The position numbers and the translations under genes are program-made. From NCBI GenBank assembly GCA_018334995.1, contig JAGXKW010000008.1:1-64000 (forward strand): a DNA stretch of 64,000 nucleotides, read 5' to 3'. Below the pieces are notes generated by a model. That model had not been told where the DNA came from, searched no databases, and saw only the letters and a list, made by a program, of their open reading frames with translations. Source of the stretch: Wenzhouxiangellaceae bacterium (GTDB lineage Bacteria > Pseudomonadota > Gammaproteobacteria > Xanthomonadales > Wenzhouxiangellaceae). Each line of letters starts with the position of its first letter. Positions within the stretch are counted from its first letter, which is position 1. Shown one piece after another: positions 58,131 through 64,000 of this stretch.

Positions 58131-58754
58131 ATGGTGAAGACAAGCCCCGGCAGGCCCATCGACGTCAACAAGGACCGCGACATTCTCGCCGCCGGCCGGG
58201 CCCTGCTTTTCGAACACGGACCGCAGGCGGTGACCATGGAGGCGGTTGCGCGCACGGCCGGCGTGGCCAAGCCCACCTTGTACAGGCGCTACGCCAACCG
58301 CGACGAATTGCTGGCCGCCGTGGCGATGAACGAATCCGAGTCCATGGCCGGGCGCTTCAGCATGACGCCCGGCAACATCGACGACCTCCGGCAGGCCCTG
58401 GTCGATTTCGGCTGCGACCTGACGCGCTTCCTGCTCAGCCGCGAGCACATCCGCTTCATTCATGCCCTCGGTGCATCGACGGGGCTGCCCCAGGAAAGCC
58501 GCGAATCCATCTTCCGGCACGGCCCGCTGGCGACCCGCGACCGGCTGGCCGACTGGCTCGGCAAGGCGGCCGGCGCCGGGCTGCTGCGCTGCCCACATCC
58601 GGCCGGCAGCGCCGAGAAATTCCTCGGAATGCTGATGGGACTGGACCTGGTGCGTACGCTGTATCACGTCCCGATGCCGCGCGACGTCGGCGCCCTGAAT
58701 GCGCATGTGCAAACCAGCGTGGACGACTTCCTGGCGCTGCATCGGCGAGTATGA
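58131..58754 (+). CDS. TetR/AcrR family transcriptional regulator
   Basis: 207 aa; ILAAGRALLFEHGPQAVTMEAVARTAGVAKPTLYRRYANRDELLAAV HTH; divergent from the RND operon. Confidence 0.94.
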   Translation: MVKTSPGRPIDVNKDRDILAAGRALLFEHGPQAVTMEAVARTAGVAKPTLYRRYANRDELLAAVAMNESESMAGRFSMTPGNIDDLRQALVDFGCDLTRFLLSREHIRFIHALGASTGLPQESRESIFRHGPLATRDRLADWLGKAAGAGLLRCPHPAGSAEKFLGMLMGLDLVRTLYHVPMPRDVGALNAHVQTSVDDFLALHRRV

Positions 58755-58793
58755 ACGGCCGTATCGACAGCGGTACGGTACAGACGGCGCTGC
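58670..58793 (+). repeat. Left copy of an imperfect direct repeat (TetR 3' end plus degenerate ClC 5' end)
   Basis: 58670-58754 aligns with 62312-62395 at roughly 82% (14 mismatches, 1 gap over 85 nt by eye); homology resumes at 58763-58793. Confidence 0.75.
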
Positions 58794-58864
58794 AGACCCG
58801 GGCACAGATCCGACTCGAATGAATGGGACGCCTGCCGCACCGAACGGCCCGGCAGGAAGAATGC

Positions 58865-61800
58865 TTACGCAGACATCATCGCTTCGATTTCTTCGGGGAT
58901 GACGGGCCTGCTGAACAGATAACCCTGCACGAACGCGCAACCTTCCTCGATCAGCACCTCGAGCTGCGCCTCGGTCTCCACGCCCTCGGCAACCACCTTC
59001 ATGCCAAGCGCCTGCCCGAGCCGCAACGCCGACACCACCAGTTGGCGCTGGCGTTGATCGCTGTCGAGCCTGCCGATGAAACTGCGATCGATCTTCAGGC
59101 TCGTGAACGGATGATCGCGCAGATAGCTCAGCGATGCGTAACCGGTGCCGAAGTCATCCATCACGATTCCGATGCCGCCGCGTCGAAGCGTCCTGAGCGC
59201 ATGTTCGACTTCGCGCCTCCCGGGCAACAACAGACCCTCGGTAACCTCGATCTCCAGTGCGCCGTTCGAAAGGCCGGCGCTCTGCATCGCCGCGATGATT
59301 CTTTCGGCCAGCCTCGGCTCCCGGAACTGCCGGGGGGAAACGTTGATCGACACGCAGAAATCGCTTGCCACCCGATTGCGCCAGTCGACAACCTGCGCAA
59401 TGACTTCATCGATCACGAAATCGCCCAGTTCCTCGATCAATCCGCTTTGCTCGGCAACCCGGATGAATTCATCCGGGAGGACTTCGCCAAGCGCCGGATG
59501 CCGCCAGCGCAACAACGCCTCGGCACCCACGCAGGTTCGATCCTCCAGCCGGATCACGGGCTGATATTTCAGATACAGCTCCCGTCGGGCAACCGCACCG
59601 CGCAATGCCTCTTCCAGCGCCAGCTGGCGCTCGACCGCTTCATTCATCGAGCGCGTGAAGAACTGATACCCGTCACGTCCCTTGCTTTTGGCGTGATACA
59701 TCGCGGTATCGGCATTGCGCAACAGATCATGCGCCGTCGTGCCGTCGTGCGGAGACAGCGCAATGCCGATGCTGGTGGTCAGAATGAATTCACGATCATC
59801 GACCACCAGGGCCTGCTTGAACGCGTCGACGATCTTGCTGGTCGAGCCTATGATGTCGGAGACGTGCTCGAAATCGTCGAGGACGATGACGAACTCGTCG
59901 CCGCCGATACGCGAAACCGTATCCTGGGCGCGAAACAGCGACTGTAGCCGCGAAGCGGCATCCACCAGGGTGCGATCCCCTGCGTCGTGACCCAGCGTGT
60001 CGTTGACCTTCTTGAAATGGTCCAGGTCCAGGAACAGCACGGCCACCTGAGTACCGTTCCGGCGCGCACGCTTGAGCGCCTGCTGCAGCCGGTCAAGCAC
60101 CAGCACGCGATTCGGCATGCCGGTCAGGCTGTCGTAGTGGGCGAGATCGAAAAGTTTCTTTTCGGTTTCCTTGCGCTCGGTGATGTCCTGGGCAAACCCG
60201 CGCAGGCTCTTGCGACCATCTCCGAGATCCACCAGTTCGGCGTGCACCGCAACCCAACGCGCTTCGCCATTGTCGGGACGCACGATGCGATGCTCGACGT
60301 TGTAGGAATGACCGTGCTTCACCGTTGAATTCAGCGCATCGACGACGTCCCGGCGTTCTGCTTCCGGGGTCAGCTGCAACACCTGCTCGCGGGTCAGCGG
60401 ACCGTAGCCGCAGCCGGCAACCCGTCGCCATTCGGTGGAGGCCGTGAATTCCTCGGTACCGACCACCCACTCCCAGCTGCCCATGCCGGCCAGGGCCTCG
60501 GCGTGCGTGCGCAATGCCTCGCTCGCCCGCAGCCGGCGCGTCTTGTCACGCCGGTCCACGGCCATGCCGATGAGGTCGCCAAGCGCCTGCAGCAGTGCGG
60601 CTTCCTCGCCACTCCAGTCACGCCTGGCCAGCACCGAATCGAAGCCGATCAGACCGACCAGCTCATCATCGGCAAAAATCGGCAAGGCCATCAGCGACTG
60701 GATATTCCCGACGGCGAACAACGTTTTTTCGGCGGCCCATTCTTCACCCAGAGCCTGGATGTCCGGCAGAACGGCCCGCTGCTTGCGCTTGAGCTTCTCC
60801 AGCAACCGGGGAATGGTCGTGGATGGCACGTCCTGCAGGTCGTCACGTTCGCTGGAAATCCCAGCGGCCACCCATTCATGCGTATTGCTGTAGAAAGCCA
60901 GGTCCGGCGTGAACCAGATGAGGTAGGCACGATCGGCCCTGCAGCAGCTGCCCACCTTTTCGAGCGTCGAGTAAAGCGCATCGTCGATATCGGCTTCATC
61001 GGCCTCGAACAGCATGCGCGAAACTTCCACCATGAGTCGCTGGAGCCCCGACACGTACTCCAGATCGCGCTGAATGGTCTTGAGCTCGCTGATATCGATC
61101 ATCACGCCGACGAGCTTTTGCGGCTTGCCGTCGATGACGACAATATTGACGACGTCACGCAGCCATACGGTCCTGCCTTCGGCATCGATCATGCGGTAGT
61201 CGAAGCTGTGCCTGCGTCGGTCGCGTACGGCCCGGCGACAGAATTCGACCGCCCATTCCCGATCATCCGGATGAATGTGGCGCGGCCAGAAATCCGGCTC
61301 GCTGGTCCACTGCTCCGGCGAATAACCCAGCAACTTCTTCGATTCCGGGCTCACGTATCGAAATTCCAGGGTGTCCGGATCGCCCTCCCAGATGATGGCC
61401 GTGGTCGATTCGACCAGCGACTGGTAATGCTGCTGCTGCCGTTGCAATTCCTTCGCCTTGTCGGCCTGTGCGATGCGCCCGCGGATGTGCTCTTCGGTCC
61501 TGTTCGCAAGCTGTCGGCTCATTACGAGCAAAGCGGCGACATAGATCACGATGAGCAGGGCGGTGGTATTGGACAGCGGGGTCTCCAGCAGCCAGAACCG
61601 CAGCGCGAAAGGCAGCAGGGCCGGCAGCAGAAACAGCCATGCGCATTGCCAGCGCGATGCAACGTTCACCACCCCGCCGGCGCCAAGACCGGCGACCAAG
61701 AAGGTCAACAAGGCCTGGTGGCCGGACGTGCCGCTGTCGAAGAAGACCCAGGCGCTGCTGCCCCACAGGATGCCCGAAAGCAGGGTCAGGGTGCGGTAAC

Positions 61801-62077
61801 GGACGTACCATTTGAGACTGGCTTCGGGCAGGCCGAACTCGTTTTGGTATGCCCTGAAAAGCAGCATACGGCTTCCGGCAATCACGGCGAAAGCGATCAG
61901 CCATCCCAGCAATATCGGCTCGGCGACCAGGCCCCAGTGGGTTACGCACAGCACCACCGCCAGCAGTGCGGTGATGACCAGAGTGCCGGGCAGCGAGCCG
62001 TAAAGATGACGATTCTGCTCGGCCAGTACCCGATATGCGTGTTCTTGTTCGTTATGATGCTTTTCCATTTTGGACAC
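58865..62077 (-). CDS. Membrane PAS/GAF/GGDEF/EAL sensor, c-di-GMP turnover
   Basis: 1070 aa; N-terminal TM region, two PAS regions, GAF, RAQDTVSRIGGDEF, EALLRWRHP, DDFGTGYASLSYL. Confidence 0.94.
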   Translation of the reverse strand: MSKMEKHHNEQEHAYRVLAEQNRHLYGSLPGTLVITALLAVVLCVTHWGLVAEPILLGWLIAFAVIAGSRMLLFRAYQNEFGLPEASLKWYVRYRTLTLLSGILWGSSAWVFFDSGTSGHQALLTFLVAGLGAGGVVNVASRWQCAWLFLLPALLPFALRFWLLETPLSNTTALLIVIYVAALLVMSRQLANRTEEHIRGRIAQADKAKELQRQQQHYQSLVESTTAIIWEGDPDTLEFRYVSPESKKLLGYSPEQWTSEPDFWPRHIHPDDREWAVEFCRRAVRDRRRHSFDYRMIDAEGRTVWLRDVVNIVVIDGKPQKLVGVMIDISELKTIQRDLEYVSGLQRLMVEVSRMLFEADEADIDDALYSTLEKVGSCCRADRAYLIWFTPDLAFYSNTHEWVAAGISSERDDLQDVPSTTIPRLLEKLKRKQRAVLPDIQALGEEWAAEKTLFAVGNIQSLMALPIFADDELVGLIGFDSVLARRDWSGEEAALLQALGDLIGMAVDRRDKTRRLRASEALRTHAEALAGMGSWEWVVGTEEFTASTEWRRVAGCGYGPLTREQVLQLTPEAERRDVVDALNSTVKHGHSYNVEHRIVRPDNGEARWVAVHAELVDLGDGRKSLRGFAQDITERKETEKKLFDLAHYDSLTGMPNRVLVLDRLQQALKRARRNGTQVAVLFLDLDHFKKVNDTLGHDAGDRTLVDAASRLQSLFRAQDTVSRIGGDEFVIVLDDFEHVSDIIGSTSKIVDAFKQALVVDDREFILTTSIGIALSPHDGTTAHDLLRNADTAMYHAKSKGRDGYQFFTRSMNEAVERQLALEEALRGAVARRELYLKYQPVIRLEDRTCVGAEALLRWRHPALGEVLPDEFIRVAEQSGLIEELGDFVIDEVIAQVVDWRNRVASDFCVSINVSPRQFREPRLAERIIAAMQSAGLSNGALEIEVTEGLLLPGRREVEHALRTLRRGGIGIVMDDFGTGYASLSYLRDHPFTSLKIDRSFIGRLDSDQRQRQLVVSALRLGQALGMKVVAEGVETEAQLEVLIEEGCAFVQGYLFSRPVIPEEIEAMMSA

Positions 62078-62251
62078 GCAGCCAGCTTTTCCGGGCGCCG
62101 ATGCCCGCCATGCAGTTTAACGTGTTCACATGCGGCGGCCGGCAAACGCCGCGCATGGCGAATGCGGCAAGATTATTGGAAGGCTGCGCGAAGTGCAAAC
62201 CGCGCGGCTTCGCGCCCCGGACTGTGTTCAAAGGGCCGCTACAATGCGGTC

Positions 62252-62395
62252 ATGAATCTCCCTTCCGAGCGCCACCTCGAAGTCGCGATCATCGGTGCTG
62301 GATCCAGCGGGCCCGATGCCGCGCGGCGTCGACGCCCTGGGTACGCATCGCAAACCACCGTGGATGATTTCCCGACACTGCATCGGCAAGTCTGA
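62252..62395 (+). pseudogene. Chimeric remnant: FAD/NAD Rossmann N-terminus joined to a TetR C-terminal fragment
   Basis: MNLPSERHLEVAIIGAGSSG (GxGxxG) then PDAARRRRPGYASQTTVDDFPTLHRQV*; the tail matches TetR VQTSVDDFLALHRRV*. Confidence 0.65.
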
Positions 62396-62434
62396 CCGCG
62401 GAGATGGACGGCGGCACGGCAAAAACGGCATTGC
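62312..62434 (+). repeat. Right copy of an imperfect direct repeat (TetR C-terminal remnant plus start of ClC)
   Basis: See 58670-58793. Confidence 0.75.
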
Positions 62435-64000
62435 GGGCGGTCTCGCTGCCGCTGATTGCCGGCGTGCTGGCCGCGCTGGCCGCTCAGCTGTTCGTTGCGC
62501 TGGTCCTGGCTCTCAACGACGTGCTGCTCATCACGCCGGCCCGACGGGCGGGATCGGCCGGCCCCAGTCTCGCCATTGCCACCATCCTGGTGCCGACGCT
62601 GGGCGGATTGCTGGTCGGGGGCTTGCGCCATTTCGCCGGCGCCCAGGTCGCGCGCGGCCCCGCCGACATCATTGCCGCAGTGCAAACACGCAGCGACGAA
62701 CTGTCCGCGCGCGCCGGTTGGCTCAGCGCATCCTCCAGCCTGGTCTCGCTGGGCTCGGGTGCGGCGGTCGGCGAATACGGACCGCTGGTGCACATCGGCG
62801 GCAGCCTGGGCGCCACGCTGGCACGCATTTTCCGCAGCGATGTCACCACGATCAACATCACGATCGCGTGCGGCGTGGCCTCGGCCATCGCCACGGTCTT
62901 CAATGCGCCGATCGCCGGCATCCTTTTTGCCCACGAGATCATCCTCAGGCATTTCGCCCCGCGTGCTTTCGCGCCGGTGGCGCTGGCTTCGATCATCGGC
63001 TACATCCTGGCCAATGCGTTGAGCGTCCGCCGGCCGCTGCTGGCAGTCGAACAGGTCGGCCAGCCGCAGCTCTGGGAATTCGGCCTGTTCGTGCTGCTGG
63101 GCGTCGTCGGCGCAGGACTGGCCATTCTGTTCATGCAGGCCATCCTCGGCGCCGGAAAGGCGGCCGCGAAAATCCGGCGCTTCGAGCCGCTCAAACCTGC
63201 GCTTGCCGGGCTTGCACTTGGGCTGGCAGCGCTGGTGCTGCCCGAAATTCTGGGCATGGGTTTCGACCTGCTGAGGTCGGTCACCGCAGGCGAACTCATG
63301 CCGATCGGGGCCCTGGTCGCCATCATGGCAGCGCGCCTGCTGGCCACGGCGATGTGCCTTGGTATGGGTTTTACGGGCGGGGTGTTCAGTCCAGCCCTTG
63401 TCATCGGCAGCCTGCTCGGCGCGATATTCGGTCTTGGCATGAGTCAGGGGCTGGGATTGCCGGTGACCGATTCGGCCGTCTATGCGATCTGCGGCATGGT
63501 GGCGGTCACCGCGCCGGTGATCGGCGCACCGGTCACGGCGGTCGTCATCGTGATGGAATTGACCGGCAGTTATACGCTTACGCTCGCGGCGCTTGCCAGT
63601 GTGGCGATCTCGAACTCGATGGTGTCGCGCCTTTTCGGACGCTGCCTGTTCGACCGCCAGCTGCGACAGCGGAGAATCGACTTGTCGGCGGGTCGAACCA
63701 AGGCCATTCTCGAATCGCGCGACATCGCTCCGCTGGTCAGCGCCAACCTGGCTGTCGTCAGTCAGGACGCGACCGTGGCGCAGGCCGAAAAGGCCATGGT
63801 CGACAAGCATCTCGACCAGGTTTTTCTGATCGACGGCAACGGCCTCTACCAGGGCAGTGTCCAGCTCAAGGACGTTTTTTCCGGCGTGCCGGAACAGGCT
63901 GCAATCGAGCTGCGCAATCGCAACGACGTGGTGATGCTCGAACACCTCAACATCTGGCGCGCAATGCAGCGACTCAAGCGTTTCGACGGCGAAAGCGTCG
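62404..64000 (+). CDS. ClC-family chloride channel/antiporter with CBS region (partial, runs off right edge)
   Basis: MDGGTAKTALRAVSLPLIAGVLAAL...; GSGAAVGEYGPLVHIGGSLGA; FTGGVFSPALVIGSLLGAIFG; C-terminal CBS-like segment; no stop before 64000, absent from the ORF track. Confidence 0.92.
   Translation, partial: MDGGTAKTALRAVSLPLIAGVLAALAAQLFVALVLALNDVLLITPARRAGSAGPSLAIATILVPTLGGLLVGGLRHFAGAQVARGPADIIAAVQTRSDELSARAGWLSASSSLVSLGSGAAVGEYGPLVHIGGSLGATLARIFRSDVTTINITIACGVASAIATVFNAPIAGILFAHEIILRHFAPRAFAPVALASIIGYILANALSVRRPLLAVEQVGQPQLWEFGLFVLLGVVGAGLAILFMQAILGAGKAAAKIRRFEPLKPALAGLALGLAALVLPEILGMGFDLLRSVTAGELMPIGALVAIMAARLLATAMCLGMGFTGGVFSPALVIGSLLGAIFGLGMSQGLGLPVTDSAVYAICGMVAVTAPVIGAPVTAVVIVMELTGSYTLTLAALASVAISNSMVSRLFGRCLFDRQLRQRRIDLSAGRTKAILESRDIAPLVSANLAVVSQDATVAQAEKAMVDKHLDQVFLIDGNGLYQGSVQLKDVFSGVPEQAAIELRNRNDVVMLEHLNIWRAMQRLKRFDGESV

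Follow-up and report, generated by a model that had tools for sequence, protein, structure and literature searches.

We analysed a window of 64,000 nt, that is, the whole stretch of DNA studied here, which corresponds to positions 1-64000 of a 70,504-nt contig in a draft genome of 129 contigs (G000). At the right end of the window and beyond it lie tetR, a GGDEF-EAL gene, clc and the gene of an FMO-like monooxygenase, interspersed with partial copies of one another (Table 1), and an HlyD/RND efflux pair is located to the left of tetR in divergent orientation. The GGDEF-EAL gene also carries PAS and GAF domains (Pfam). The clc product matched the NCBIfam ClcB-like model at 4.7e-70, which is below the cutoff, and alignment with Escherichia coli ClcA (3ejz) showed an atypical ClC, in which GEYGP stands in place of the gating glutamate motif GREGP and no GSGIP motif is present; a homologue in another genus has GQYGP at the position of the GREGP motif.

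Table 1. Genes, partial gene copies and scars at the tetR-FMO locus
Feature	Position	Strand	Evidence
tetR, intact, 207 aa	58131..58754	+	Pfam TetR_N 2.2e-15, TetR_C_7 9.7e-14; AefR-like C-terminal domain
TetR tail, copy 1, left end of duplicated unit	58670..58754	+	aligns to 62312-62395
clc 5′ scar, copy 1	58763..58793	+	23/31 identical to 62404-62434
clc 3′ scar with stop codon, copy 1	58794..58822	+	58798-58879 aligns to contig 64091-64174
GGDEF-EAL gene, intact, 1070 aa, kept in copy 1	58865..62077	-	Pfam EAL 1.9e-70, GGDEF 7.7e-49
FMO upstream region and first 20 codons, copy 1, right unit end	62211..62311	+	90% over 92 nt, contig 64183-64274
Chimeric open frame, 47 codons (20 FMO + TetR tail)	62252..62395	+	read from sequence
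TetR tail scar, copy 2, 1-nt deletion	62312..62395	+	alignment to 58670-58754
clc, intact, 570 aa, ClcB-like, kept in copy 2	62404..64116 (window ends 64000)	+	Pfam Voltage_CLC 1.6e-73
GGDEF-EAL 3′ scar, copy 2	after clc, to contig 64174		alignment to left block
FMO-like monooxygenase (flavoprotein), intact	contig 64216-65688, past window		FMO-like Pfam 3.6e-15

A self-BLAST search of the whole 70.5-kb contig revealed that its two strongest repeats both belong to this set of copies. The best one, which pairs 62219-62310 with 64183-64274 (90%, E 7e-29), represents the FMO start and extends partly past the end of the window, and the second-best pairs 58670-58788 with 62312-62429 (77%, E 5e-18). 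The other, weak repeats of the contig (29542-33264) correspond to three paralogous subunits that, judged by sequence, are antiporter/NADH-dehydrogenase-like membrane proteins, and represent ordinary paralogy.

The last 85 nt of tetR recur at 62312-62395 with 70 identities, 14 mismatches and one 1-nt gap, and beyond the stop codon the similarity extends over the 31 nt that begin clc (23/31, P ~6e-8 under the base composition). When 58600-58850 was aligned with 62250-62500, the resulting local alignment (58670-58794 versus 62312-62435) scored 104, against 52 for the best of 2000 random pairs from the window. These results bear out the first-pass annotation, which had derived both regions from one tetR-clc junction by duplication and had read the right copy as a TetR scar followed by an intact clc. 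Its description of the left copy as a dead ClC start was correct in that the scar is present, with the start ATG at 58763 now ATC, but incomplete in that both ends of clc remain there, as the block described below indicates. Joined in frame, the 5′ and 3′ scars in copy 1 read IDSGTVQTALQTRAQIRLE*, for comparison with MDGGTAKTALR...QTDLRAEEQIRAE* in the intact product, and the clc body deleted from this copy amounts to ~551 codons.

A further block aligns 58798-58879 on the left with 64091-64174 on the right, with a score of 34, whereas the controls reached at most 24 over 4610 contig windows and 27 over 5000 Markov shuffles. The block spans 81 columns at 72%; alone it attains only E 0.008 in the whole-contig search, and its weight comes from its position. 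Its right side consists of the last clc codons, a spacer and a remnant of the final GGDEF-EAL nucleotides, while its left side consists of a remnant of the last clc codons, the spacer and the intact GGDEF-EAL end. Since this block is found on both sides, clc would formerly have been placed between tetR and the GGDEF-EAL gene in both copies. The alignment indicates that clc and the GGDEF-EAL gene stood tail to tail in each copy, and that remnants of the deleted genes survive: the two ends of clc in the left copy, and the 3′ end of the GGDEF-EAL gene in the right one.

The region of the first ~100 nt of FMO is repeated to the left of clc (~62211-62310), adjoining the TetR scar. At the joint 62311/62312, FMO codon 20 is fused to the TetR tail, which places the right end of the unit against its left end with at most one nucleotide of ambiguity, and such an end-to-start joint is what a tandem duplication must make. 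The two FMO copies differ at 9/92 positions, versus 41/195 in the other blocks (Fisher P 0.02); this lower divergence is expected under constraint or gene conversion, and unequal block divergence is not predicted by a single event without later conversion or constraint.

Taken in order, the three homologous blocks (TetR tail plus clc 5′ end; clc 3′ end, spacer and GGDEF-EAL 3′ end; FMO upstream region plus start) are arranged identically in copy 1 (58670-62311) and copy 2 (62312-64275), with two complementary gaps between them. Copy 1 lacks ~1.65 kb of clc and copy 2 lacks ~3.3 kb holding the GGDEF-EAL gene; from these gap sizes in collinear copies, the duplicated unit is therefore ~5.3 kb. 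The two deletion joints exhibit only very short similarities. The copied TetR-clc junction proposed in the first-pass annotation is thus real, but the unit is larger than that junction and includes the clc 3′/GGDEF-EAL 3′ block and the FMO start.

We consider it highly probable that the locus arose by tandem duplication of this ~5.3-kb segment (TetR tail, clc, GGDEF-EAL, FMO start) followed by complementary loss. In this course of events, clc would have entered an ancestral tetR-GGDEF/EAL-FMO locus just after tetR, and from the scars we infer that the order before duplication was tetR-clc-GGDEF/EAL-FMO. The segment bounded by the TetR tail and FMO codon 20 would then have been duplicated in tandem, with end joining without clear microhomology that would account for the FMO-start/TetR-tail joint seen in the sequence. 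The scars point to a subsequent in-frame loss of the clc body from copy 1, both clc ends being kept, and to loss of the GGDEF-EAL gene from copy 2 except for its last nucleotides. A complete tetR could have survived only on the left and a complete FMO gene only on the right, and the outcome would be a change from tetR-clc-GGDEF/EAL-FMO to tetR-GGDEF/EAL-clc-FMO. Each of clc and the GGDEF-EAL gene is missing from one copy only, in complementary fashion and with remnants left, with the consequence that a gene would be deleted if the two copies were to recombine now. The arrangement itself probably serves no function and arose as a by-product of evolution.

The same blocks and scars could also be generated in two events instead of three, by a one-step complex duplication through template switching of a replication fork. 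On reaching FMO codon 20 the fork would have switched to the TetR tail, continued through clc into the end of the GGDEF-EAL gene and switched again to the FMO upstream region, such that copy 2 never held a whole GGDEF-EAL gene and clc alone was later lost from copy 1. The scarcity of microhomology at the joints is compatible with this path; however, its two template switches must happen to spare every gene as well as the FMO promoter region, and the sequence offers no reason to prefer it to duplication plus deletion. We therefore regard it as improbable. Still less credible is an assembly artefact joining two strains, for which the draft state of the genome might speak, given that the copies are 10-25% different and that an assembler would find no overlap between the sequences on either side of the joint; this is the least probable of the readings considered.

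Gene order in relatives bears on the first-pass proposal, in which the GGDEF-EAL gene was inserted into a tetR-clc pair and the junction was duplicated in the process. Orthologues of tetR were found in G002, G003, G004 and G005. In G002 and G004, tetR, the GGDEF-EAL gene and FMO are adjacent, in that order and without clc, and G005 shows tetR-GGDEF/EAL-FMO, likewise without clc, with one more gene between tetR and GGDEF-EAL. Although tetR-clc junction sequence does flank the GGDEF-EAL gene on both sides, this synteny contradicts the insertion: in clc-free congeners the GGDEF-EAL gene lies beside or near tetR as its ancestral neighbour. Its own 3′ scar after clc moreover indicates that the GGDEF-EAL gene was part of the duplicated unit and lay beyond clc as seen from tetR, and an insertion would leave unexplained both this 3′ end and the FMO start before the TetR scar. 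We consider the proposal ruled out by congener synteny and give it scarcely any weight. Very improbable, too, is an origin from foreign DNA, in which a related species would have supplied a circle or fragment with TetR tail-clc-FMO start that was integrated through one crossover at the FMO start. Such an event would also give FMO-start direct repeats around TetR tail-clc, and clc is sporadic in the family; but it is ruled out by the clc scar after tetR in copy 1, whose two ends it does not explain, and the TetR tail of copy 2 is closest to the resident TetR tail.

How neighbouring bacterial genes change order is debated, and the duplication-and-loss route in bacteria is rarely caught with its traces intact. 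Tandem duplication-random loss (TDRL) is standard for animal mitochondrial genomes (for example PMC5745709 and PMC4223735). There, as in G000, several genes are copied in tandem, one copy of each is lost, a new order results and remnants stay in the gaps. The G000 locus differs in that it lies on a bacterial chromosome, in that the ends of its unit fall inside two genes, which forces the survivor for two of the four genes, and in that its deletions are large with short end scars and do not reflect gradual decay. Brandis and Hughes (2020) proposed the SNAP hypothesis to explain gene order in bacteria, stating that direct empirical evidence was absent and that no unique feature marks the genome once an event is complete (PMC7055797). 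Both SNAP and the present locus reorder neighbouring bacterial genes by duplication and asymmetric loss. The duplications that SNAP discusses, however, are maintained by positive selection and measure, for example, 100 kb, while the G000 unit is ~5.3 kb and the locus is silent on selection. Where SNAP expects no unique feature after completion, features are left in G000. Asymmetric duplicate loss was also described for the rpoBC-str-S10 operon cluster (Brandis 2021, PMC8046335), and there too the order changes are attributed to segmental duplication plus loss; they are deduced by gene order comparison, and no paired scars are described in the passages searched. A search of the open-access literature found no comparable bacterial case with paired scars. 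The mechanism is thus that of known tandem duplication-random loss, proposed for bacteria as SNAP, and the G000 locus is a rare scarred example, for which the evidence comes from one draft genome only. As this locus shows, a completed event can be recognizable by a signature, namely the end-to-start joint together with complementary end scars of the lost genes. Large-scale searches for this signature are feasible and would allow the proportion of rearrangements due to duplication and loss to be measured.

A clc of this family occurred in 0/5 congeners. No second genome with clc at this locus was found among six congeneric genomes (G000 included), 399 genomes of the order or the GTDB genome contigs, and no living relative was found with the pre-duplication order. 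The nearest clc genes, which are 50-51% identical, belong to 5 genomes from a different genus of the same family, and the three of their neighbourhoods that were read show no tetR of this kind beside clc. Most likely clc is thus a newcomer at the locus, though the congeners may have lost it. The additional gene in G005 (L019:9169-11457; 762 aa) has only a weak DUF11 match and fills the same tetR/GGDEF-EAL gap that would once have held clc in G000. As for timing, the TetR tails of copies 1 and 2 agree at 69/83 sites, and their agreement with G002 is 58/84 and 54/83; because the tails are closer to each other than to G002, the duplication occurred after G000 and G002 separated; between these two genomes, divergence at fourfold sites is 0.69 in tetR and 0.88 in the GGDEF-EAL gene. 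Because tetR is divergent from the HlyD/RND pair in four genomes (G000, G002, G004 and G005), its position suggests that it regulates this pair and not clc.

In its present place clc follows the copied FMO start region, from which it may perhaps be expressed. The chimeric frame stops 8 nt before the clc ATG and is a possible leader of clc. The sequence TACAAT, which lies just ahead of the FMO start codon, also occurs in G002 and is kept in both copies, and a promoter scan of 62050-62450 yielded no sigma-70-like site on the + strand. We offer promoter capture by clc as a hypothesis; that the completed, scar-marked reordering also provided a new clc promoter, with the copied FMO start retained and driving clc via the chimeric leader, seems to us rather doubtful. 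Between the GGDEF-EAL gene and FMO, a TATTGGAAG-type element at 62172-62199 is conserved in G002 (23/29) and has been lost from the FMO of copy 2; it overlaps the sole promoter-like site found, which is on the - strand and directed toward the GGDEF-EAL gene.
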